Positions 2-12,254 of a stretch of 64,000 nt of DNA are shown one piece after another (the stretch's first letter is position 1; each line of letters starts with the position of its first letter). The stretch comes from Desulfoferula mesophila (lineage in GTDB: Bacteria; Desulfobacterota; Desulfarculia; Desulfarculales; Desulfarculaceae). Both the position numbers and the translations under genes were made by a program. The notes beneath the pieces were generated by a model. The model worked only from the letters and a program-made list of their open reading frames with translations. It had not been told where the DNA came from and did not search any database. The stretch covers positions 1,999,501 to 2,063,500 of the forward strand of contig NZ_AP028679.1 in the NCBI RefSeq assembly GCF_037076455.1, read 5' to 3'.

Positions 2-319
2 GAAAACCGACTAAGCCAAAGCGAAGAGCGTTATCGCCGCCTCATAGAGACTATGCCGGACGCGATCTTCACTCTTTTGCCTGATGTTTCCGCCAGCTGT
101 GCGCCTGAATTCGAACCGTCCTCAGATCTCCTTCAAGAGTTCCCGGGCAATGATCATTTTCTGTATTTCAGAGGTACCGCCGCCTATCTCCACCAGCTTG
201 GCGTCTCGCATGTAGCGTTCAACGGGGTACTCGCGCATGTAACCGTAGCCTCCGTGTATCTGGATGGCGTCCAGGGCCGCCTGGGTGGCCATGGACGAAG
301 CGTAATACTTGGCGATTGA
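2..319 (+). pseudogene. Fragment of a PAS-domain sensor protein, running in from the left edge
   Basis: The frame is open from base 2 and encodes SEERYRRLIETMPDAIF near residues 7-23. This is the helical linker plus start of a PAS domain, as found between PAS repeats of bacterial sensor kinases. PAS-like sequence ends at about base 120, where the frame runs antisense into the 3' end of the acyl-CoA dehydrogenase gene and stops at 319. No kinase or output domain follows, so the gene has lost its 3' part, probably by a rearrangement at about 115-122. The beginning lies outside the window. The PAS assignment rests on a short motif. Confidence 0.55.
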
Positions 320-1279
320 GGCTTCCTTGGAAATGCGGCGCCCATCGTCGATCAGGGGGCACAGCGAGTATGCGTAGTGCCTGGCCAACTCCAGGCGGGT
401 GGCCATTTCGGCCAGCATGTTTTTGACCAGTTGGAAGTCGCAGATGGGCTGGCTGAACTGCTTGCGCTCCTTTGCGTACTTTACCGATTCTTCCAGGCAG
501 GCCTGCATGATGCCGATGCTGGTGACTGCCCCCAGCACACGCTCCTCGTCCAGGGTCTCGAACAGGATTGGGTAGCCGTGCCCTTCGGCGCCCATAATTT
601 GCTCGCCGGACACCTCCACGTGGTCCAGGAACACCTCGCCGGTGGGCGAGCAGCGCATGCCCATTTTCTCGAAGGGCTGGCCTGTGGAAACCCCCGGCAT
701 TTCCCGATCTAGAATGAACAGGGTGCCGCCGCCCGCGCCCCTGGTGCCGTGCTCTCTAGCCATTACCAGGAAGTACTGGGCCAGGGGGGCGTTGGTGATA
801 AAGGTTTTGGATCCGTTCAGCACATAGGCCGCGCCCTTTTTGGCGTAGGTGGTCTTGATGGCCAGTGCGTCAGAGCCCGCCTCGGGTTCGGTGAGGCAAA
901 AGGCTGCCAGCTTTTCCCCGTTTAGCACCGGCGGTATGTAGGTGGTCTTTTGCTTTTCGCTGCCGTACTTGGAGATGAAGTAACAGAAGTTGGTGGTGCA
1001 CATGTTCACCGACATGCCGAAACCGGCGGCCACCCGGCAAAACTCTTCCTTGATCAGGGCGTTGGTCAGCAGGTCCGCCCCGCCGCCGCCATACTCTACC
1101 GGGGAGGTGGAGCCGATCAACCCGTTGCGCCCCGCTTCCCGGTAGGCTTCCATTGGGAATCTCTCTTGCTCGTCGAGCTCCCGGGCGATGGGGGCCAATT
1201 CTTTTTCCGCCAGCCTGCGCGCCGTCTCGCGCACCATGCGGTGTTCCTCGGAAAGCAGCGCGTCCCAGATGTTTTTCAC
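122..1279 (-). CDS. Acyl-CoA dehydrogenase, isovaleryl/long-chain type active site
   Basis: FAD enzyme of 385 aa, full length for the family. It introduces a 2,3 double bond into an acyl-CoA and passes electrons to ETF. The FAD/substrate motif [10 protein letters not shown] is near residue 128 and the C-terminal [15 protein letters not shown] block is present. At the position of the usual catalytic Glu the sequence reads GGGTSE, so that Glu is Gly. Instead DEERVL supplies Glu246, matching the alternative catalytic base of isovaleryl- and long-chain acyl-CoA dehydrogenases. This suggests a branched or long acyl substrate. It is the last gene of the minus-strand operon, 15 bases after the MaoC gene, and overlaps the truncated PAS gene tail to tail. 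Confidence 0.9.
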
Positions 1280-1294
1280 AACAGCTCCTCCTGA

Positions 1295-1750
1295 CTAGTC
1301 GTCGCCGGATTTCTTGCGCAGCATGAGCACGGTGGTGGTCCCGCTTTGCACCACCTGGTGGCGCTGGTTGAGCACTTCTTTTTCAAAGGTCAAAACCCCG
1401 CGATTGCCCTGGGAGGTTTCGCGCAGTTCCTTGACCCTCTGCACCACGTGGATGGTATCGCCGATCTTGATGGGATGGTGGAATTGCCAGTTCATGCCCA
1501 GGAAAGCCACCAGGGTGCCTTCCAGGTTGCCCAACTGCTGGGAAAGACCGGCGTGGATCACCAGGCCCAGCATGCCGTGGGCGATGCGCTCGCCAAAATG
1601 GCTCCCGGCGGCGAACTCGGCGTCGGTGTGCAGCGGGTTGGTGTCCCAAGACAGGGCCGCGAAGTTCACGATGTCGGCCTCGGTCACCGTCCTGGCCTTG
1701 GTCACGAACTCCTGGCCCAGCTCAAAGTCGTCGAAGTACATTGGATTCAT
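1295..1750 (-). CDS. MaoC-family (R)-specific enoyl-CoA hydratase
   Basis: A 151-aa single hot-dog-fold protein. The hydratase-2 signature is visible as SWDTNPLHTD, giving the catalytic pair Asp36/His41, followed by HGMLGLVIHAG. Family role: adds water across a trans-2-enoyl-CoA, giving the 3(R)-hydroxyacyl-CoA. It is placed between the acyl-CoA ligase and the acyl-CoA dehydrogenase, so it would act on the dehydrogenase product. In steroid side-chain degradation the hydratase is of this same fold and its product is cleaved by a DUF35-associated aldolase; both partner types are present upstream in this operon. An AGAGG ribosome site precedes the ATG. Confidence 0.85.
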   Translation of the reverse strand: MNPMYFDDFELGQEFVTKARTVTEADIVNFAALSWDTNPLHTDAEFAAGSHFGERIAHGMLGLVIHAGLSQQLGNLEGTLVAFLGMNWQFHHPIKIGDTIHVVQRVKELRETSQGNRGVLTFEKEVLNQRHQVVQSGTTTVLMLRKKSGDD

Positions 1751-1801
1751 TTCAGGCCTCTTTTAAAAATGCCGTTTCTCGGGCTGCGGCGGGCTACAAC
1801 C

Positions 1802-3337
1802 CTAGCTGTCTTTGAACATCTCGCGCAGCTCCCGTTTCAGGACCTTGCCCCCGAAGGTGGTTTTGGGGAGCGCGTCCACGAAGCGGATCATGGCGGGCTT
1901 CTTGTACCCGGCCAGGCGCTCTTGGCAGTGGGCCTGGATGATCCCCTCGTCCAGAAGGGCGCCGGGCTGGGCCATCACCACCGCGCACACCGCTTCACCC
2001 CAGCGGGGATGGGGCAATCCGATCACCGCCACGTCGCGTACCAGGGGGTGTTGCAGCAGGACCTCCTCCACCTCCCGGGAGTAGACGTTCAGCCCGCCGG
2101 TCTTGATCATGTCCTTGAGCCGGTCCACCACGTACAGGTAGCCCTTGGCATCGAAGCGCCCAAGGTCGCCGGTGTGCAGCCAGCCGCCTCGCAGGGTGGC
2201 CTCGGTCTCTTGGGGGGCGTTGTAGTAGCCCTTGAACACGCTGGGCCCCCGCACGATGATCTCGCCGGGCTCTCCGGGGGGCGGCTCCTGGTCAAGGGCG
2301 TCCACCACCCGCACCTCGGTGCACATGTAGCCGCGCCCCACGCTGCCGGGCTCCTCGGGCTGGTCCCAGGGCTTGAGCACAGTCACCGCTGGGGATGCCT
2401 CGGTGAGGGCGTAGGAGCTGTAACAGGCCCCGTTGGGCCAAAGCCTGGTCTCAATCTCTTTCCTCTCGGCCGGGTCCAAGATTCCATGGGTGTTCAGCCA
2501 GCGGCGCATGGAGCTGGTGTCGCGTGGCTTGCGTTTGATGGCCTCCAGGAGCATCCGGTAGATGGTGGGGTTGCCTACCACGAAGGTGGTGCGCTCGCGC
2601 TCCACCACGTCCAGAAAGTGGTCCGGTTCGAAGGTCTTGCTTCCGATGAAGGTGCCCCCAGCGTACATGAAGGCCAAGAAGCGGCTCAGGGAGGCCACGT
2701 GATACATCTGCATGGGATAGAAGATGCGCTCCTCCGGGGCTGGGCTGTGGTTCTCGGTGGTCACCGAAATTATGTTCCACAGGATGCTCTTGTGGGTCAA
2801 CACCGCCCCCTTGGGGCGGCCGGTGGTGCCTCCGGTGAACAAGATGAACGACTCGTCGTCCTCGCTCACCACCTGGGGCGACTCCCCCTCGGATGCGTTT
2901 TTTTTCAGAGCCTCATAGTCCCGGGCGAACGCCGGTGCCGCCCCGCCGAAGGCTACCAGGGTTTTCAGGGCGGGCAGGCGGTCGCGCATCTCCTCAGCCA
3001 GGCCCTGGTAATGGACATCGAAGACCAAGGCGGTGCAGTCGGTGATCTTGGCCATGCGGCAAACGTCGTCCACCGTGCCGCGAGAGTCAAGGGGTACCGA
3101 CACCAGGCCCCGCTTCAGGTTGCCCAGGATCACCTGCATCAGGCTCAGGCAGTTGTCCGAAAGGGTGGCCACGTGGGAGCCCTTGCCCAGGCCCAGACCA
3201 TCCAGGGCGTTGCTCCAGCGGTTGACCGCCGCGCTCATCTGGGCATAGGTGGCCCTGGCCTGGTCGTCGATGCAGGCCACCTTGCCAGGAAACTTGCGGG
3301 CCGAGCGCTCAAAGGCCTCGCCTAGGGTCATTTCCAT
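1802..3337 (-). CDS. AMP-forming acyl-CoA ligase
   Basis: An ANL-superfamily ligase of 511 aa that activates a carboxylic acid to its CoA thioester using ATP. Visible motifs are the phosphate loop FTGGTTGRPKG, YALTEASP (A5), TGDLGRFDAKGYLYVVDR (A7/A8 hinge) and the C-terminal catalytic lysine region FGGKVLKREL. I chose the ATG at 3337 because a GAGGAG ribosome site lies just upstream and homology begins there; the open frame extends to 3556 but that part overlaps the BKACE gene. Substrate cannot be read from the sequence. It is presumably the entry step for the acid brought in by the TRAP transporter of the same operon. Confidence 0.88.
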   Translation of the reverse strand: MEMTLGEAFERSARKFPGKVACIDDQARATYAQMSAAVNRWSNALDGLGLGKGSHVATLSDNCLSLMQVILGNLKRGLVSVPLDSRGTVDDVCRMAKITDCTALVFDVHYQGLAEEMRDRLPALKTLVAFGGAAPAFARDYEALKKNASEGESPQVVSEDDESFILFTGGTTGRPKGAVLTHKSILWNIISVTTENHSPAPEERIFYPMQMYHVASLSRFLAFMYAGGTFIGSKTFEPDHFLDVVERERTTFVVGNPTIYRMLLEAIKRKPRDTSSMRRWLNTHGILDPAERKEIETRLWPNGACYSSYALTEASPAVTVLKPWDQPEEPGSVGRGYMCTEVRVVDALDQEPPPGEPGEIIVRGPSVFKGYYNAPQETEATLRGGWLHTGDLGRFDAKGYLYVVDRLKDMIKTGGLNVYSREVEEVLLQHPLVRDVAVIGLPHPRWGEAVCAVVMAQPGALLDEGIIQAHCQERLAGYKKPAMIRFVDALPKTTFGGKVLKRELREMFKDS

Positions 3338-3398
3338 GGGGTCGCTCCTCCAATGCGCCTGGGGGTCGATCCGGTGACCAGCCGCCAACTGATCGCGG

Positions 3399-4241
3399 CT
3401 ATCCCCGGTTGAGCAGGGGCAACATACGCCGGGCATCTTCCACGCCGGCAGGTTCCAGACCCAGCTCCCTGGCGATGCGCACCGCTTTGGCCACCAGCTC
3501 TGCGTTGCTCTTGGCGGGCACACCCTTAGAGAGGTAAACGTTGTCCTCGAAGCCAACCCTCATGCCCCCGCCCAGGATCAGGGCGCCGGTCCCCAGGGGA
3601 AACTGGTGGCGGCCGATGCCGATGGCCTGCCAGGAGTAGCCGGGGTCGAGGGCGTCTTTCAAGAGCACCAGGTTCTTGAGGCTGGCCGGGATGCCGCCCA
3701 TGACCCCCAGCACGAAGCTGACCCTGAAGGGAGGCTCCAGCAGGCCAGGCCTGCGGATCCAGTGTTCCATGTTCTGGATCATGGACAGGTCATATACCTC
3801 GAACTCGGGCATGACCCCCCATTCGCGCATGCGCTTGGCGTAAAGCTCCATGGTGTCCGGGGTGTTGGGGAATAGGCCCCGCCCGAAGTTCATGGACCCT
3901 GCGTTTAGCGAAGCCGAATCGGGGCGCAGCTCCTCTACCGGCTTAAGCCGGTCCTCCACGCTGAGGCCCAGGGTGGTGGCCCCGCCTCCGGTGGTTATCT
4001 GGGTGATAATGGGGCATGCGTCGCGCACTGCGGCCAGGTAGTCCCGAAACACCGCCAAGTCCGGGGTGGGCTTTCCGGTATCGGGGTGGCGGGCGTGCAG
4101 ATGCACCACCGAGGCGCCCGCTTCGTAGGAGCGTCGAGTCTCGGCGGCCACCTCCTCGGCGGTGTAGGGGATGTTGGGGTTGTCCTCGCGGGTGGGGATG
4201 CTACCCGTGGGGGCTACGGTGATGATCACTTGATTGCTCAT
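3399..4241 (-). CDS. BKACE-family beta-keto acid cleavage enzyme (DUF849)
   Basis: A 280-aa TIM-barrel Zn enzyme. Known members condense a beta-keto acid with acetyl-CoA to give acetoacetate and a shorter acyl-CoA; the founding member is the lysine-fermentation Kce. The Zn-binding pair is seen in VVHLHARHPDTG (His47, His49) and the glutamate motif in VGFEDNVYL near residue 230. Specificity varies widely among BKACE enzymes and cannot be called here. In the operon it lies between the DUF35 gene and the acyl-CoA ligase, suggesting that a beta-keto acid or keto-acyl intermediate is formed by the neighbouring enzymes. Confidence 0.88.
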   Translation of the reverse strand: MSNQVIITVAPTGSIPTREDNPNIPYTAEEVAAETRRSYEAGASVVHLHARHPDTGKPTPDLAVFRDYLAAVRDACPIITQITTGGGATTLGLSVEDRLKPVEELRPDSASLNAGSMNFGRGLFPNTPDTMELYAKRMREWGVMPEFEVYDLSMIQNMEHWIRRPGLLEPPFRVSFVLGVMGGIPASLKNLVLLKDALDPGYSWQAIGIGRHQFPLGTGALILGGGMRVGFEDNVYLSKGVPAKSNAELVAKAVRIARELGLEPAGVEDARRMLPLLNRG

Positions 4242-4283
4242 GAAAAGGGCTCTCCCTCAAAAGCCACAGACCTGGCGGGCGCA

Positions 4284-4829
4284 TTAATCCAGGGGCTTGA
4301 AATAAACGTCGGTGATGGCCCCCAGCCTTAGCTCGCGGTAGACCGCCTTCACCTTGGTGCCCACCTTGACCCCCGCCACGTCGTCCACCTCCATGTTGGT
4401 CATTAGCAACGAGTCAGTGCCGTCCAGCTTTACGTAGGCGCAGACAAAGGGCACCTTTTTGATGAAGCTGCTGGTGGTGTAGTGCTGCACGGTGCAGGCC
4501 TCGATAGTGCCGGTGCCGGCCAGCTTCTTCCACTGGGTGGGTTGGTAGCAGGTGTGGCAGTTGCTGCGCGGCGGGCAAAAGACCTTGCCGCACTCCGGGC
4601 ACTCAGCCCCATACAGGGTTTTGTTTTCCCTTAACTCCCGGAAGAATCGCGACTGGCCGCCGTAGGAGTACTTGAAGACGACCTCCATCTTGTCCGGGAT
4701 CTCCAGGGGCGCGTCCATGGGGTTCTTACCGCTAAGCTCCTCCTCGAATTCCCGCCGCAAGTGCTCCACGGGGATGCCGTATTTTTCGTGCTGGTAGCGA
4801 TACCAGGCTTCTCTTTCAGCGCTGTTCAT
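4284..4829 (-). CDS. DUF35 Zn-ribbon/OB-fold protein, partner of the adjacent thiolase-like protein
   Basis: A 181-aa protein with a four-cysteine rubredoxin-like Zn ribbon (CPECGKVFCPPRSNCHTC, about residues 75-92) followed by an OB-fold. Family members bind thiolase-superfamily enzymes and help position CoA substrates: archaeal thiolase/HMG-CoA synthase complexes, BbsA of benzylsuccinate degradation, and the DUF35 domain of ChsH2 that activates the aldolase Ltp2. The gene starts 7 bases after the thiolase-like gene ends, so the two are probably co-translated subunits. About 70 residues precede the ribbon and are not recognised. Confidence 0.85.
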   Translation of the reverse strand: MNSAEREAWYRYQHEKYGIPVEHLRREFEEELSGKNPMDAPLEIPDKMEVVFKYSYGGQSRFFRELRENKTLYGAECPECGKVFCPPRSNCHTCYQPTQWKKLAGTGTIEACTVQHYTTSSFIKKVPFVCAYVKLDGTDSLLMTNMEVDDVAGVKVGTKVKAVYRELRLGAITDVYFKPLD

Positions 4830-4836
4830 TTGCTGC

Positions 4837-6027
4837 CTACCTTTCTAAAACCAGGCAAATACTCCAGGTGCACAAGGTCCCCCCGATGCTCTGCACCAGA
4901 CCCTTGCGCGCGCCTTGGCGCTGGCGCTCCCCGGCCTCGCCGCGCAGGTGTTTGCACACTTCGTAGGTTTGCATTATCCCCGTGGCCCCCACCGCATGGC
5001 CGCAGCCGATCAGTCCGCCGCTGAGGTTTACCGGCAGGCGGCCATCGGGCAGTACCGTGCCGTCGTCGATGAGTTCGCCGCCACGCCCCTCCTCGCAGAA
5101 GAAGCAGTCCTCATAGGCCATGATCTCGGTGCCGGTGAAGGCGTCGTGCAACTCGGCCAGGTCCAGTTCCTCCACGGGGTTGGTGATGCCCGCCATCTCA
5201 TAGGCCTTCTTGGCCGCCAGGCGCGACGACTCGAAAGTGTGGATGCTGGGGCGGTTGCCAGGCATCACGTAGTCCACCGATGCCCCCAGGCCGCTGATCC
5301 AGACGGGATTGTCCGAGATGCTCTCAGCCACTTTCTTGGAGGCCAGGATCACCGCCGAGGCCCCCTCGGTGTAGAGGCAATTGTCGTAGAACTTGAAGGG
5401 CTCCACGATCATGCGCGAGTCCAGCACATCCTGAACGGTCAAGACCTTGGGAGACTGGGCCACGGGGTTTTTGGTGGCGTTGAAGTGGTTCTTCACCGAG
5501 ACCTTGGCCATCTGCTCCTCGGTGGGGTTGCCGTACTTGTCGCGATGGGCCACCACGGCCAGGGCGAAGCCCGATGCGGCGGTGCGCCCGGCCGGGTTGT
5601 CGTAGGTCATGTCCGCCGTGTAGAGAATGGCTCGAAGCACCTCCGGAGTGGCCATTTGCAACTCGTAGTTGTAGGTGTCGGCGCACTTTTCCACGCCCAG
5701 CACCAGGCATACGTCCTGCAGGCCGCTGGCCACCTCCTGGTAGCCGATGCGCAGGGCGGCCCCGCCGGTGGCCCCGCCGGAGTTGACCCGGACCATGGGT
5801 TTGAGGCCCAGGCCCAGGTAGTCGTGCACAAAGGCGTCGGGCTGGTACTGGCGCTGGAAGAAATCGTTGTAGATTCCGTACACCGCACTGTCCACCCGGT
5901 CCTTGTCAATGCCGGCGTCCTCGAAGGCCATCTTGGCCGCATCGAAAGCCAACTCATAGTAGGTCTTTTCCAGCCATCTCGACTTGAATTTCGTGGTTCC
6001 GATACCCACGATGGCAACGTCTCTCAT
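4837..6027 (-). CDS. SCP2-type thiolase-like protein lacking the nucleophilic cysteine; candidate acyl-CoA aldolase
   Basis: A 396-aa thiolase-fold protein. The N-terminal VAIVGIGTTKF and C-terminal CGHAVGATG blocks are typical of SCP2-type thiolases. The motif that normally reads NCATGSTAL is here VNSGGATGGAAL, so Gly85 occupies the position of the acyl-accepting Cys and normal thiolysis is unlikely. Ltp2, a steroid side-chain aldolase of the same superfamily, also lacks that Cys and needs a DUF35 partner; here the DUF35 gene follows 7 bases downstream. I infer a retro-aldol activity on a 3-hydroxyacyl-CoA. A degenerate, non-catalytic thiolase is the alternative. Confidence 0.8.
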   Translation of the reverse strand: MRDVAIVGIGTTKFKSRWLEKTYYELAFDAAKMAFEDAGIDKDRVDSAVYGIYNDFFQRQYQPDAFVHDYLGLGLKPMVRVNSGGATGGAALRIGYQEVASGLQDVCLVLGVEKCADTYNYELQMATPEVLRAILYTADMTYDNPAGRTAASGFALAVVAHRDKYGNPTEEQMAKVSVKNHFNATKNPVAQSPKVLTVQDVLDSRMIVEPFKFYDNCLYTEGASAVILASKKVAESISDNPVWISGLGASVDYVMPGNRPSIHTFESSRLAAKKAYEMAGITNPVEELDLAELHDAFTGTEIMAYEDCFFCEEGRGGELIDDGTVLPDGRLPVNLSGGLIGCGHAVGATGIMQTYEVCKHLRGEAGERQRQGARKGLVQSIGGTLCTWSICLVLER

Positions 6028-6099
6028 GTTCCTCTCCTAGAACCTTTGCCGCGATTGATCTTGCAAGCTCGTCAATTCCGCCCGCTTCCATGACGACGT

Positions 6100-7404
6100 C
6101 TATTCCATGAAGTTCGGCAGGAAAAGCGCCAGATCGGGGAAAATGGTCACGATCAGCAGGCACACGGCCTGCAGGATCACGAAGGGAATGATCGAGCGGT
6201 AGATGTCGTTTAAGGTCACGTCCTTTGGCACCACCGCCTTCATGATGAACAGGTTGAAGCCAAAGGGCGGGGTGATGTAGGCCATCTCCATGTTGATTGT
6301 GAAGATGATCCCGAACCAGACCGGGTCGAAGCCCAACTCCATTATCAGGGGCACGAATATGGGCGTGGTGAGCATGATGATGCCCGCCGGGTCCAGAAAC
6401 ATGCCCAACACAAAAAAGCAGATTTGGATGCCGATGAAGATCCACCACTTGGAAAGGTGGAGCCCCAGGATGGTGTCCTTGATTAGATCCGAAACCCCGG
6501 CGTAGGCGAGGACGTGGGTGAAGGCCACTGCCCCGATCACGATCCAAAGCACCATAGCGGTGAGGCTGAATGTGGAGGACAGAGCACCCTTGAGGTTGGC
6601 CCAGCTAAGCCTGCGCTGGATCGCCGCGCAGAGTAGGGAGCCGACGGCTCCGATGCCTGCGGCCTCGGTGGGGGTGGCCGCCCCGGTGTAGATGACCCCC
6701 AGCACCACGATGATAAGGGCGGCGGGCAGGAAGATGCCCTTGAGGGCCAATATTTTCTCCCTGAAGGAGAACACCTCGTCCACCGGCGGACCCAAGCTGG
6801 GCTTGAGGGCGCTGCGAACCAGGATGAACACGCAAAAGATTAGGGCCAGCAATATGCCAGGCACTAGGCCGCCCATGAACAGCTTGCCCACCGAGACCTC
6901 GGCCATGGTCCCGTAGATGATCATGATGATGCTGGGCGGGATAAGGATACCCAATGCCCCGCCCGCGGAGATGCAGCCTGTAGCTAGGTGCTTGTCATAG
7001 CCCCGTTTGAGCATTGCCGGCAGGGCGATGAGTCCCATGCTCACCGTGGCCACTGAGCTAATGCCCGCCATGGCCGCGAAAATGGCGCAGATGACTACGG
7101 TTCCGGCGGCCAGGCCTCCAGGCAGCCGCCCCATCCACACCTGGATCATGTGGTACAACTCGTCAGCCAGGTTCGAGGTTCGCAACACGTTGGCCATCAA
7201 TATGAATAGGGGCACGGCAGTTAGAATGGAGTTGGTGCCTTCGGAATAGGCGGTCTGGGCCACCATGTACATGCCCTTGGCGCCCCAGATGTAGACCACC
7301 CCCAACACAGCGATGCCGCCCAGGGAAAAGGCCACGGGAAGGCCCAGGACCAGAAACAGCAGCAGCAGGCCGGTGATAATGGCGGTAAAAAGCGCGGTGT
7401 CCAT
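6100..7404 (-). CDS. dctM: TRAP transporter large permease (DctM)
   Basis: A 434-aa very hydrophobic protein with about twelve membrane segments, the expected size for DctM. It is the Na+-coupled translocating subunit of a tripartite ATP-independent periplasmic transporter in the inner membrane. Typical family stretches include AAMAGISSVATVSMG and ISAGGALGILIPPSI. It lies 8 bases downstream of dctQ and is followed by the thiolase-like gene, so uptake and breakdown genes are one transcription unit. The substrate is likely an organic acid, but cannot be read from sequence. Confidence 0.93.
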   Translation of the reverse strand: MDTALFTAIITGLLLLFLVLGLPVAFSLGGIAVLGVVYIWGAKGMYMVAQTAYSEGTNSILTAVPLFILMANVLRTSNLADELYHMIQVWMGRLPGGLAAGTVVICAIFAAMAGISSVATVSMGLIALPAMLKRGYDKHLATGCISAGGALGILIPPSIIMIIYGTMAEVSVGKLFMGGLVPGILLALIFCVFILVRSALKPSLGPPVDEVFSFREKILALKGIFLPAALIIVVLGVIYTGAATPTEAAGIGAVGSLLCAAIQRRLSWANLKGALSSTFSLTAMVLWIVIGAVAFTHVLAYAGVSDLIKDTILGLHLSKWWIFIGIQICFFVLGMFLDPAGIIMLTTPIFVPLIMELGFDPVWFGIIFTINMEMAYITPPFGFNLFIMKAVVPKDVTLNDIYRSIIPFVILQAVCLLIVTIFPDLALFLPNFME

Positions 7405-7412
7405 GGATTAGG

Positions 7413-7988
7413 CTATTCGAAAAAGGATTTGTCCAACCGCAGCTCGGCCAGGAGTCCGGGCAATTCTTCGGTTGGGTGAATGAGGATGAGCAGGTTCTTC
7501 AGGCTGCGCGCGATTATCTGCAACATCAGCAGCAGCGCCCCCAGGGGCACCATGAACAGCGAAGGCCATAGGGGCATTTCTAGGATGGTGTCGCTGAGCT
7601 TGTTCTTGACCAGCGCCTCTATGGCCATCTCGCCGCCCCACCAGATGATAACCAGGCAGAACAGGGCGGCCAGCCACCAGGTGGCCAGCTCCATCGCCGC
7701 CTTTTGCTTTTCGCCGCGCAAGCGGAAGAAAAAGTCCACACGCACGTGTTGGTCCATCAAAAGGCAGTAGCTACCCCCGAGCATGCTCATAAGGCACAGC
7801 AGGTACTGGTTGGTCTCATTGACCCAATCAGTGGGGGAGTTGAGTAGGTAGCGGCAAAAGACCTCCCAGCAAATGCTGATGGCCATCACCACCACGGTGA
7901 GGGAAAAAATCTTCTCCACCCACAGAATCAGGGCGTTGATGCTTTTGATGATCCTGGCGGCAGGACGCTGTTGCACTAATTCGCTCAT
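7413..7988 (-). CDS. dctQ: TRAP transporter small permease (DctQ)
   Basis: A 191-aa membrane protein with four predicted helices, the usual DctQ architecture. It joins DctM and the binding protein in the TRAP complex. The stretch CRYLLNSPTDWVNETNQYLL is typical of the DctQ family (conserved W, E and Y pattern). It sits between dctP and dctM. The 53-base gap to dctP contains a strong GC-rich hairpin that may separate the expression levels of binding protein and permease. Confidence 0.9.
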   Translation of the reverse strand: MSELVQQRPAARIIKSINALILWVEKIFSLTVVVMAISICWEVFCRYLLNSPTDWVNETNQYLLCLMSMLGGSYCLLMDQHVRVDFFFRLRGEKQKAAMELATWWLAALFCLVIIWWGGEMAIEALVKNKLSDTILEMPLWPSLFMVPLGALLLMLQIIARSLKNLLILIHPTEELPGLLAELRLDKSFFE

Positions 7989-8002
7989 GGTCCCCGCTCA
8001 AG

Positions 8003-8032
8003 AGCGGGGCGACCGTCGTGGGCCGCCCCGCT
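8003..8032 (-). terminator. GC-rich hairpin between dctP and dctQ
   Basis: Perfect 9-bp inverted repeat, AGCGGGGCG at 8003-8011 and CGCCCCGCT at 8024-8032, with a 12-base loop. On the operon (minus) strand it lies just after the dctP stop with an A-run before it and no T-run after it, so it resembles an mRNA-stabilising or attenuating intercistronic hairpin. On the plus strand it is followed by seven T's (8037-8043) and has the form of an intrinsic terminator facing the other way. Confidence 0.5.
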
Positions 8033-8041
8033 TGGGTTTTT

Positions 8042-9061
8042 TTACAAAGCGCCTTTTTTCTGCAGATAGGACTTCAGCAGATCCACCAATTCTTTGCTCA
8101 GGGGGGTGGCCCCTCCAACCTCTTCCCAAAGAGGCATGCACATCTTGCGCACCTTGGCCACGTCCGCTTGGGAAAGCTCCATGACCTTGACTCCCTTGCC
8201 CTCGGCCGCCTTCAGGGCGCTCTGGTCCCACTCGGGGCTCTTGAGGGAGGAAGCGTAGAAGGTCTCGATGCCTGCCTTGTTCAGCGCCGCCTGAAGCTCA
8301 GGCGTAAGGGACTTCCAGAAGTCCAGGTTGAGGTACAGGCCGGTCATGGCCGGGGTGTGGAAACCGGGCAGGATGGCGTACTTGATCACCTCGTAGAGCT
8401 TGTAGGTGCTCAGGGTGTAGTAGGGGTAGACCACCCCGTCTACGGTGCCCCGTTGCAGGGACATGTAGATTTCCTTGGCGCTCAGGGAAACCGGAGACGC
8501 ACCCAGCAGCTTTACGATGGGGCCGTCCAATCCAGGAGCCCGCATCTTCTTGCCCTTGAAGTCGTCAAGGTTGTTAACCGGGAAGTTGGTCATGCAGCCC
8601 ATGGTGCCGGCCATGACCGGGAACAGGTATTGCACGTTCTGCTTCTGCGTGGCCTTACGCATCAGGTCCAGGAAGCCCCCGTTCACGTAGAGGTCGTAGG
8701 CCTCCTTGGGGTCGCGCCAGGTGAAGGGCAACCACTCCACCTTACCCTCCTTCAAGGTGCCGCCGTAATAGATTAGGGCGGAGACCAGCCCCTCCACCGT
8801 GCCCTTACTCACGGAGTCGAAACCCTTTTTGGCGGAGACGAGTTGCCCCGGCCAAAAGAGCTTAATATCAACCCGGCCCTTGGTGTACTCCTCGGCCTTG
8901 GCCACGAACTGCTTTATCATCTGCGGGACGTAGCTGGTCTCAGGATAGATGCATTGGATACGCAAAGTATATTTCTTGCCTTCGGCAAACCCTGGCGTGG
9001 CGGCCACGACAAAAGCCATTACCACGGCCAACAAGCAAATGACCTTACCCCATCTGGTCAT
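8042..9061 (-). CDS. dctP: TRAP transporter periplasmic substrate-binding protein (DctP)
   Basis: A 339-aa exported solute receptor. The chosen start (9061) has an AAGGGAGGAGG ribosome site and gives a classical signal peptide, MTRWGKVICLLAVVMAFVVA followed by an Ala-x-Ala-like cleavage site before EGKKYTL. DctP-family features are the FWPGQLVSAKKGFDSVSKG segment and the RAPGLDGPIVKLLGASPVSL region, which carries the conserved ligand-binding Arg. The longer frame to 9151 lacks a ribosome site and would bury the signal peptide. It is the first gene of the operon and presumably sets which acid is captured. Confidence 0.9.
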   Translation of the reverse strand: MTRWGKVICLLAVVMAFVVAATPGFAEGKKYTLRIQCIYPETSYVPQMIKQFVAKAEEYTKGRVDIKLFWPGQLVSAKKGFDSVSKGTVEGLVSALIYYGGTLKEGKVEWLPFTWRDPKEAYDLYVNGGFLDLMRKATQKQNVQYLFPVMAGTMGCMTNFPVNNLDDFKGKKMRAPGLDGPIVKLLGASPVSLSAKEIYMSLQRGTVDGVVYPYYTLSTYKLYEVIKYAILPGFHTPAMTGLYLNLDFWKSLTPELQAALNKAGIETFYASSLKSPEWDQSALKAAEGKGVKVMELSQADVAKVRKMCMPLWEEVGGATPLSKELVDLLKSYLQKKGAL

Positions 9062-9644: not shown

Positions 9645-10319
9645 ATGCCAATCAAGCGAGGCGTGGTCATAGAAGAGGCCTACAACAAGATCAAGGAAAT
9701 GATCTATTCCAACCAACTGGCACCTGGTCAGAAAATCATTTACACCGACCTCGCCAAGAAGCTACAAATGAGCGTCACTCCCCTGATCCACGCCTTGAAC
9801 CGGCTGGAGGCTTCAGGCTTTGTCAGTTACGTCCCCAATAAGGGGTACTTTTTAAATGAGATCACCATTGAGGAAGCTTCTCAACTCTACGAGGTGCGCG
9901 AAGCTCTGGAGCTGCACGCCCTGCCCAAGGTGATCGAAAAAATCGAGCAATCCCACCTGGACCAAATAAAAAAGGCCTCCAAGAAATACCGCCACCTGGG
10001 CCAGGTGCCCGCGGACCGCGACCTGTTCCTGGCCGACGCCCGATTCCACCTACAACTGGTGAAGATTTCTGGCAACGACATCTTGCACCGAATGCTCAAG
10101 GAAATATTCGAAAAGCTTTATTTGAAATACCCGCCCCAATACATGGACACGGCCAGGCTCAAGGAGATCGCCTCCGAGCATCGCAGCCTGCTGCAAGCCC
10201 TGGCTCGCCGGGACGCCGTGGCCGCCACGGCCATCACCAAGCTGCACATCGCCCAAGGCCGTGAGCGCATCCTGGAGTCCCTTCGCATACGCCAGCAGGA
10301 GATACTTTCCCTGCCCTGA
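9645..10319 (+). CDS. GntR-family (FCD) transcriptional regulator, paralogue 1
   Basis: A 224-aa regulator. It has an N-terminal winged helix (residues about 5-70, including LAPGQKIIYTDLAKKLQMS and ALNRLEASGFVSYVPNKGYF) and a C-terminal all-helical FCD ligand domain with the metal-ligand pattern D-x3-H (ADARFHLQLVKISGN) and later histidines. FCD regulators usually bind an acid or acyl-CoA metabolite and repress adjacent catabolic genes. Transcribed away from the dctP operon, it is its likely regulator. The DNA-binding part is nearly the same as in the regulators at 32273 and 53850. Confidence 0.9.
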   Translation: MPIKRGVVIEEAYNKIKEMIYSNQLAPGQKIIYTDLAKKLQMSVTPLIHALNRLEASGFVSYVPNKGYFLNEITIEEASQLYEVREALELHALPKVIEKIEQSHLDQIKKASKKYRHLGQVPADRDLFLADARFHLQLVKISGNDILHRMLKEIFEKLYLKYPPQYMDTARLKEIASEHRSLLQALARRDAVAATAITKLHIAQGRERILESLRIRQQEILSLP

Positions 10320-11091: not shown

Positions 11092-11391
11092 ATGACTGAT
11101 CAGAAGAGTGGGCGGCAGGTAAGCCGGCGGCGGTACTCAGCCGAGTTCAAGTCAGAGGCCCTTGGGCTTGCGGAGCAGGTGGGAGTGGCCGGTGCGGCCA
11201 AGCAGCTTGGCTTGCATGAATCTCAGCTCTATGCCTGGCGCAAGAAGGCTCGGTACGAGGCCAGCCGTAGCGAGACTGAAAAGGAACTGGCCATAGAAAA
11301 TGCCAGGCTGAAGCGGCAGCTTGCCAAGCAGGCCGAGGAGCTTGAAATATTAAAAAAGGCAAGCGCGTACTTTGCGAAAAGCCTGAAGTGA
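11092..11391 (+). CDS. IS3-family transposase OrfA (HTH subunit)
   Basis: A 99-aa protein with a helix-turn-helix (YSAEFKSEALGLAEQVGVAGAAKQLGLHESQLYAW, residues about 14-48, seen as consecutive helices) and a C-terminal leucine-zipper-like segment. In this family it recognises the terminal repeats and is also the N-terminal half of the OrfAB transposase made by -1 frameshifting. The slippery sequence A-AAA-AAG is at 11352-11358, in the right phase, with no stop in the -1 frame before orfB. Confidence 0.88.
   Translation: MTDQKSGRQVSRRRYSAEFKSEALGLAEQVGVAGAAKQLGLHESQLYAWRKKARYEASRSETEKELAIENARLKRQLAKQAEELEILKKASAYFAKSLK
11352..11358 (+). promoter_or_regulatory. Programmed -1 frameshift site of the IS3 element
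   Basis: AAAAAAG read as A-AAA-AAG in the orfA frame. This is the standard slippery heptamer of IS3-family elements. The -1 frame is open from here through orfB. The same heptamer recurs at 41012-41018 in the second copy. Confidence 0.65.
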
Positions 11392-12254
11392 AGTACGCGT
11401 TAATGCATGACAATATAGGCAAATACAGCATTAGCGTCCAGTGTGAGGCTTTCGGGGTGTCGCGTAGCGGGTATTATGCTTGGCGGCTTAGGCGGCGGCA
11501 TCCCAGCAGAAGGCAGGTGGAGCGTGAGAAGCGGGACAATCTGGTGGTCCAGGCTTTCGAGGCCCGCAAGGGCCGCAGTGGAGCCGTGGGTATAACCCTT
11601 GACCTTGATGATCAGGGCCACGCATATAATCGGAAGACCGTGGCAGCCAGCATGACAAGGCAGGGTCTGGTGGCCAAGGCGGCCAAGAAATACAAGGCCA
11701 CCACGGATTCGGATCATAACTTGCCCGTGGCTCCAAATCGATTGGAGCAAGATTTCACGGCAGAGGCCCCCAACCAGAAGTGGGTCTGCGACATTACATA
11801 TTTATGGACCGGGGAGGGCTGGCTGTATTTGGCGGTGGTGCTGGATCTTTTCTCTCGCATGGTGGTGGGGTGGGCCATGGATAAGCGCATGAAGGCGGGG
11901 CTGGTATGCGATGCCTTGCAGATGGCCTTGTGGCGGCGGAAAATGCCTAAAGACGTGCTGGTCCACTCAGACCGGGGCAGTCAGTACTGCTCGCGCATGT
12001 ATCAGGCCCTCTTGGCCAAACACGATCTGATTTGCTCAATGAGCGGCAAGGGCAACTGCTATGATAATGCGGTGGCCGAGAGCTTTTTCCACACGCTGAA
12101 GGTGGAGGCGGTCCATGGCGAAAGTTTCGCCACCCGGGAAGCCATGCGCCGGGCCATCTTCGAGTATATTGAAGTGGACTACAACCGATCTAGAAGGCAC
12201 AGTGCCAACGGACACATCAGCCCCTTGGCCTATGAACACAAAATGATCGCTTAA
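11388..12254 (+). CDS. IS3-family transposase OrfB (DDE integrase domain)
   Basis: A 288-aa protein with HTH_21 followed by the rve integrase core. The catalytic triad is visible: Asp in WVCDITYLWT, Asp in VHSDRGSQY and Glu in NAVAESFFHTLK. It overlaps orfA by four bases with a GTG start; the fusion OrfAB is expected to be the active transposase. The frame is intact, so the element may still be mobile. Confidence 0.9.
   Translation: MKYALMHDNIGKYSISVQCEAFGVSRSGYYAWRLRRRHPSRRQVEREKRDNLVVQAFEARKGRSGAVGITLDLDDQGHAYNRKTVAASMTRQGLVAKAAKKYKATTDSDHNLPVAPNRLEQDFTAEAPNQKWVCDITYLWTGEGWLYLAVVLDLFSRMVVGWAMDKRMKAGLVCDALQMALWRRKMPKDVLVHSDRGSQYCSRMYQALLAKHDLICSMSGKGNCYDNAVAESFFHTLKVEAVHGESFATREAMRRAIFEYIEVDYNRSRRHSANGHISPLAYEHKMIA

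Follow-up and report, generated by a model that had tools for sequence, protein, structure and literature searches.

A cysteine-less thiolase-fold protein encoded beside a stand-alone DUF35 gene in Desulfoferula mesophila: a candidate CoA-dependent carbon–carbon lyase from a wider cysteine-less clade

In the literature found, thiolase-fold aldolases are described for steroid side chains, together with a proposal for a trypanosome protein. In Ltp2-ChsH2 (6OK1), the retro-aldolase of the steroid C3 side chain, Tyr294 acts as base and Tyr344 as acid. Ltp2 follows an acyl-CoA dehydrogenase and a MaoC hydratase (PMC12329534). In Sal-Shy (9MYR), the aldolase of the bile-acid C5 side chain, a Gly at the position of the thiolase Cys (Gly89) excludes thiolysis, and its backbone amide binds the β-hydroxyl of the substrate (PMC12329534). 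Here, a 396-amino-acid thiolase-fold protein, abbreviated THIO (open reading frame (ORF) 4837–6027, minus strand), is described from a 64,000-nucleotide stretch of the Desulfoferula mesophila genome (contig NZ_AP028679.1, positions 1,999,501 to 2,063,500; the window). Together with the product of the adjoining DUF35 gene it is put forward, at a probability of about 50%, as a CoA-dependent carbon–carbon lyase (retro-aldolase), i.e., a new form of thiolase-fold CoA retro-aldolase outside steroid metabolism.

A first-pass annotation of the window, made from the letters alone, had noted that Gly85 replaces the nucleophilic Cys, and HMMER alignments bore this out. THIO (PF22691/PF00108) reads V81-N-S-G-G85-A-T-G-G, with Gly85 aligned to the catalytic Cys of solved thiolases (NNNCSTG in the zebrafish SCP2 thiolase, EAACASG in the methanogen acetoacetyl-CoA thiolase). 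The pair Gly84-Gly85 is shared by all 29 members of the window's subclade (29/29), by 55/55 of the subclades A–D described below and by 4/4 aligned Ltp2/Sal-type aldolases, versus Cys at the nucleophile position in 28/28 related Cys-type thiolases compared. The second thiolase Cys (HDCF) is Ala296 in THIO (HDAF). Both thiolase histidines were kept, His294 in H294-D-A-F and His344 in GCGHAVGATG, and these two, Asp295 and the Gly-rich loop were invariant in the window's subclade (29/29). Because the Cys at the nucleophile position is lost throughout the clade, Cys-based thiolysis by THIO is unlikely, as judged from the alignments.

Contigs of public genomes were scanned, and 15 THIO loci with 61–96% identity were recovered from other genomes, labelled Desulfarculus, Desulfobacteraceae, other Deltaproteobacteria and an Actinomycetota metagenome-assembled genome; Gly85 was kept and a DUF35 gene adjoined in all 15. 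Within the window's phylum the family was present in 7 of 395 sampled genomes, followed by an identity gap from 74% to 48%, below which mostly Cys-type thiolases and three Cys-less relatives were found. Comparison of THIO with its counterparts gave a non-synonymous rate (dN) of 0.019, a synonymous rate (dS) of 0.52 and a dN/dS of 0.037 for locus L028, and 0.059, 0.90 and 0.065, respectively, for L017, i.e., THIO is under strong purifying selection. Chance, sequencing error or a pseudogene was ruled out by the invariance across independent genomes and by these dN/dS values of about 0.04–0.07. No relatives of THIO were detected on viral contigs, and plasmid matches all stayed below 60% identity, the inspected places being Cys-type thiolases or one Ltp2-like protein.

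THIO is part of a minus-strand operon (122–9061) with the transcription order DctP-DctQ-DctM, THIO, DUF35, BKACE, AMP-forming CoA ligase, MaoC and isovaleryl-type acyl-CoA dehydrogenase (ACAD), and the enzymes and TRAP importer named in the first-pass annotation were all recovered by Pfam matches. The DUF35 gene (4284–4829, minus strand) lies, as had been stated, 7 bases from THIO and stands alone; its 181-amino-acid product (OB_ChsH2_C; PF01796, 51.3 bits), the predicted partner of THIO, combines a zinc ribbon (C-x2-C-x10-C-x2-C) with an OB fold and has the PDB relatives 6esq_E, 5m3k_B and 9myr_B. The β-keto acid cleavage enzyme (BKACE; 3399–4241, minus strand) was aligned with 2y7d and 3lot and matched PF05853 with 331.8 bits (gathering score 24.8) over model positions 2–274 of 274. 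Compared with Kce and its relatives (2Y7D) it is thus a clear family member, and none of the NCBIfam equivalogs was matched over its cut-off (Kce 298.6 bits versus 382). The AMP-forming acyl-CoA ligase (1802–3337, minus strand; PF00501/PF13193) most likely starts at the ATG at 3337, after GGAGGAG, the listed ORF running to 3556, and is followed by a MaoC-type enoyl-CoA hydratase with a D-x-N-P-x-H motif (1295–1750, minus strand; PF01575; 1q6w, 6jql). The ACAD (122–1279, minus strand; PF00441 and others; matches 4o5m and 1ivh) carries its catalytic Glu at the 254-type, isovaleryl-type position (LDEERV versus LDYERV in 4o5m), and its 376-type position is a Gly (EIGGGTSE, 4o5m EIGAGTSE) where butyryl/MCAD types carry the Glu of IYEGT.

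No PF00725 3-hydroxyacyl-CoA dehydrogenase was found in the operon, short-chain-type dehydrogenases being judged only from the genes in these loci. The nearest PF00725 gene lies 24 kb away in the window genome and 9 kb and 15 kb away in two others, although PF00725 matches number 11–20 in these three genomes. In contrast, a PF00725 gene lies within about 2 kb of two Cys-type paralogues in the window genome, L004 and L008; L008 itself is an SCP2-type thiolase at about 62.5–63.7 kb of the window with its Cys intact (NENWCTSG, HDCF), and the 3-hydroxyacyl-CoA dehydrogenase next to it is encoded just outside the window. The position of the PF00725 dehydrogenases away from the operon is suggestive rather than conclusive; such enzymes may work from a distant locus.

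Among the 15 loci, several of which lie on contigs that end too early for gene neighbours to be judged, BKACE, MaoC and a close ACAD were each found near THIO in 8, the close ligase in 9 and the three TRAP genes upstream in 4. The set of ligase, MaoC, dehydrogenase and BKACE recurs in several lineages. The complete run DctP-DctQ-DctM-THIO-DUF35-BKACE-ligase-MaoC-ACAD was present in L018, L019, L021 and L028, some with one or two further ligases; such extra ligase genes after the ACAD are missing in the window operon. In L027 the order was ACAD-THIO-DUF35-ACAD-ADP-forming-type CoA ligase-ACAD-BKACE-MaoC. Other contexts retain ACAD, THIO and DUF35 with a CoA ligase or CoA transferase, namely ACAD-THIO-DUF35-CoA transferase for a second copy of group A, the window's own subclade, and ligase-THIO-DUF35-ACAD for group B. 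Further copies adjoin an enoyl-CoA hydratase or a DUF2889 gene, the latter placed after THIO-DUF35 in L029 (9779–10285) and at the same place in L030 and L031.

Profile searches in other phyla yielded the sister groups B, C and D of group A, the group labels being assigned after the motifs had been seen. Group A carries HDAF and GCGHAVG, group B VYDSF and EHAIG, group C HDAY and GFGHPVG, and group D HDAF with GHFVGGSN or GHAVGASN. In the L029 phylum, group A was present in 9/9 searched genomes, with two copies in 6/9; group B occurred in 8 of 296 sampled genomes of the phylum of the Actinomycetota-labelled locus. The window genome itself holds a second Cys-less copy (L009/L064, G000:C1:2529760; GGATG/HDAF), with a DUF35-like and an acyl-CoA dehydrogenase gene as neighbours. 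In a tree calculated without the active-site columns, in which PDB references were represented by the aligned parts printed by HMMER with incomplete ends, every Cys-less sequence fell on one side of a branch with support 99/99, a split recovered in all 200 bootstrap trees (100%); a separate clade was formed by Ltp2, Sal and 4U4E (100/99). The Cys-less clade is well supported and does not depend on the active-site columns. An approximately unbiased (AU) test did not reject one joint clade of the Cys-less and Ltp2/Sal sequences (p 0.27); the Cys may thus have been lost once or twice. These comparisons point to a Cys-less family outside steroid metabolism that is unsuspectedly large, and no paper on this clade was found in the literature searched; publications on the organism and its physiology likewise yielded nothing of use.

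Several members of the wider set were recorded in their own right. Subclade B (L091–L098; L112, L113) is Cys-less, has the aldolase Tyr (YDSF) and is encoded in compact ligase-THIO-DUF35-ACAD operons, perhaps making it the easiest member to try as an aldolase. The thiolase-fold gene of subclade D is followed by an ORF of 330–356 amino acids (L065 8003–8992, L116 7966–9033), which is weakly DUF35-like by BLAST and gave no Pfam match at 1e-5. The window genome also encodes an Ltp2/Sal-like protein (L005, G000:C1:1954036; YDCF, EAYFMG), which clusters with the steroid aldolases despite the genome's kinship to Desulfarculaceae of the sulfate-reducer type. In a further paralogue (L002, G000:C1:4097241), which clusters with the Sulfolobus protein 4YZO, the Cys is replaced by Ser (TASSTG, HDAF).

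Set against the described systems, THIO resembles Ltp2-ChsH2 in its thiolase fold, in Gly-Gly where most thiolases have Ala-Cys, in a DUF35 partner with a C4 zinc ribbon and in an operon that supplies the acyl-CoA dehydrogenase and MaoC hydratase after which Ltp2 acts. With Sal-Shy it shares the fold, the Gly at the Cys position and the DUF35 partner. SCP2-type thiolases and the complex of acetoacetyl-CoA thiolase, DUF35 protein and 3-hydroxy-3-methylglutaryl-CoA (HMG-CoA) synthase (6ESQ, 7YVY, 6HSJ) are closest by fold (Z 46–51) and sequence (32–37%), and THIO retains their HDxF and GHxxGATG histidines; however, THIO lacks both the nucleophilic Cys of these proteins and their HDCF Cys, the latter being absent also from 7YVY, which has HDAF. 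The benzoylsuccinyl-CoA thiolase BbsAB (7PXP, NF053628) also pairs a thiolase fold with a small DUF35 subunit and belongs to an anaerobic pathway, but the fumarate-adduct pathway genes were not seen in the window operon; identity of THIO with the BbsAB thiolase was ruled out (NF053628, 137.3 bits versus a cut-off of 750).

The retro-aldolase assignment is favoured by the Gly-Gly common to the aldolases and the role of this Gly in Sal, by the Tyr-bearing sister subclade B inside the same Cys-less clade, by an operon with ligase, ACAD and hydratase and without a 3-hydroxyacyl-CoA dehydrogenase, by the other contexts that retain ACAD, THIO and DUF35, and by the low dN/dS. The Ltp2-ChsH2-like aldolytic cleavage proposed by the first-pass annotation thereby finds partial support, its observation on the sequence being confirmed, and a number of results weigh against it. 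Tyr in a YDxF/Y motif was found in 5/5 aldolase-type sequences and 8/8 of subclade B, with His at position 294 in groups A, C and D and in thiolases (29/29 in the window's subclade). Where Ltp2 has Tyr294 (YDHF) and Tyr344, and Sal Tyr302/Cys304 (YDCY), THIO has the thiolase-like His294 and His344, and position 296 is His in Ltp2, Cys in Sal and Ala in THIO; the second catalytic residue of the aldolases (Tyr344 of Ltp2, Cys304 of Sal) is absent throughout the subclade (His344 and Ala296 in 29/29). The DUF35 domain of ChsH2 is fused to a hydratase-type domain, whereas the DUF35 protein of the window is free and MaoC has its own gene, and the zinc finger of Shy is C3H1 versus C4. In the tree, THIO lies outside the Ltp2/Sal clade; direct membership was ruled out on the catalytic residues, while on ancestry the AU test (p 0.27) leaves a joint clade possible. 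The AlphaFold2 model of THIO alone, a full thiolase fold with a mean predicted local distance difference test (pLDDT) score of 77.5 and a predicted template modelling score of 0.85, was nearest to 6ESQ (Z 51.3), 7YVY and SCP2 thiolases, with lower Z scores for Ltp2 (6OK1, 43.7) and Sal (9MYR, 42.8). With a pLDDT below 50 in loop 339–345, this model does not place Cys342 and His344 reliably. Finally, the hydratase is not adjacent in some of the other contexts, and dehydrogenases encoded elsewhere in the genome could serve normal β-oxidation.

In the proposed pathway, an imported acid would be activated by the ligase, dehydrogenated as acyl-CoA by the isovaleryl-type ACAD and hydrated by MaoC to a 3-hydroxyacyl-CoA, which a THIO-DUF35 complex would cut without oxidation or thiolysis into acetyl-CoA and a ketone or aldehyde. 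Gly85 would open space in place of the Cys and offer its backbone amide to the β-hydroxyl, as for Gly89 of Sal, with His294 as base at the position of Ltp2 Tyr294 and His344 as acid at that of Tyr344. Given the role of the Gly in Sal and the placement of both histidines at the Ltp2 Tyr positions, retro-aldol cleavage by the His/His pair was judged the most likely reaction, with roughly even odds of being correct. As for the substrate, a β-branched acid, as suggested by the first-pass annotation, would fit the isovaleryl-type ACAD and may be considered a candidate. The presence of BKACE would be explained if the substrate were a 3-substituted 3-hydroxyglutaryl-CoA: the released ketone would then be a β-keto acid, which BKACE would convert with acetyl-CoA to an acyl-CoA and acetoacetate. 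On this extended and rather doubtful picture, the clade would be a large group of Cys-less CoA lyases in which a His/His pair, or in one subclade Tyr/His, takes the place of the two Ltp2 tyrosines, THIO of the window being HMG-CoA-lyase-like. Replacement of a missing HMG-CoA lyase was not supported: such a lyase is encoded in the window genome (364 bits, cut-off 246) and in other carriers, while several THIO carriers gave no match over this cut-off.

Among other uses of the fold, decarboxylation or another Cys-independent Claisen-type reaction, in which the enolate left when a β-carboxylated or malonyl-type CoA ester loses CO2 would be stabilised by the His pair, is improbable, though the least so of the rivals. 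Such stabilisation after CO2 loss is a property of Cys-less KS(Q) domains, and THIO retains both thiolase-type histidines, but the dehydrogenase and hydratase of the operon would be left without an obvious follow-up reaction. TbSLP does decarboxylate malonyl-CoA, yet slowly, with a turnover of only 0.005 per second, and Sal does not (PMC12329534). It is less probable still that THIO remains a thiolase, with a relocated nucleophile such as Cys342 next to His344 or with free CoA acting directly on a β-keto ester: Cys217, Cys311 and Cys342 are invariant in the window's subclade (29/29), but most sequences of the other Cys-less subclades carry Gly, Phe, Ala or Ser in place of Cys342, Cys217 and Cys311 are also present in many Cys-type thiolases and Ltp2/Sal-type aldolases, and the operon lacks the 3-hydroxyacyl-CoA dehydrogenase.

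Two further explanations have a low likelihood, equal for both. In ordinary β-oxidation, a thiolase working without the usual Cys would receive its substrate from dehydrogenases encoded elsewhere, for which the window genome with 20 PF00725 matches would provide; the Cys, however, is lost clade-wide, and we know of no thiolase that functions without the nucleophilic Cys. Loss of both catalytic cysteines (Gly85, Ala296) would also suit an inert scaffold or acyl-CoA carrier, with DUF35 organising other enzymes as in PhlABC and the HMG-CoA synthase complex, but the invariant active-site residues and the strong purifying selection argue against inertness.

Upstream of THIO, the TRAP importer comprises the large permease DctM (6100–7404, minus strand; PF06808, TIGR00786 over cut-off), the small permease DctQ (7413–7988, minus strand; PF04290) and the solute-binding protein DctP (8042–about 9061, minus strand; PF03480, NF037995 over cut-off; nearest PDB structure 4pe3), whose signal-peptide start lies near 9061, the listed ORF running to 9151. 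A divergent GntR/FCD regulator (9645–10319, plus strand; PF00392/PF07729) is the probable regulator of the operon, and its homologue (87%) adjoins the operon of the closest relative, L028. Directly beyond it lies an IS3-type transposase pair (11092–12254), and more transposase-like ORFs were seen left of the window (L032).

The same chemical problem, cleavage of a tertiary 3-hydroxyacyl-CoA that resists oxidation, is met by the AtuA-like lyases ThnQS in naphthalene-degrading anaerobes and, as proposed, by LrcC, described only as a protein of the HMG-CoA synthase superfamily, which would act on 3-hydroxy-3-isopropenylglutaryl-CoA in a limonene degrader (PMC12016498, PMC12583861). In line with the first-pass annotation, no described pathway joining BKACE with this gene set was found in the literature searched. 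The wider Cys-less clade, present in anaerobic and other uncultured bacteria, is marked by a distinct active-site signature, and thiolysis is therefore probably not carried out by the products of many genes now labelled thiolase or acetyl-CoA acetyltransferase. The anaerobic cutting of β-branched or tertiary 3-hydroxyacyl-CoAs is a recognised difficulty in hydrocarbon and terpene degradation, for which the operon offers a concrete, expressible candidate, and an HMG-CoA-lyase-like cleavage with salvage of the β-keto acid by BKACE would, if true, be a new anaerobic route past β-branched or tertiary-alcohol intermediates.

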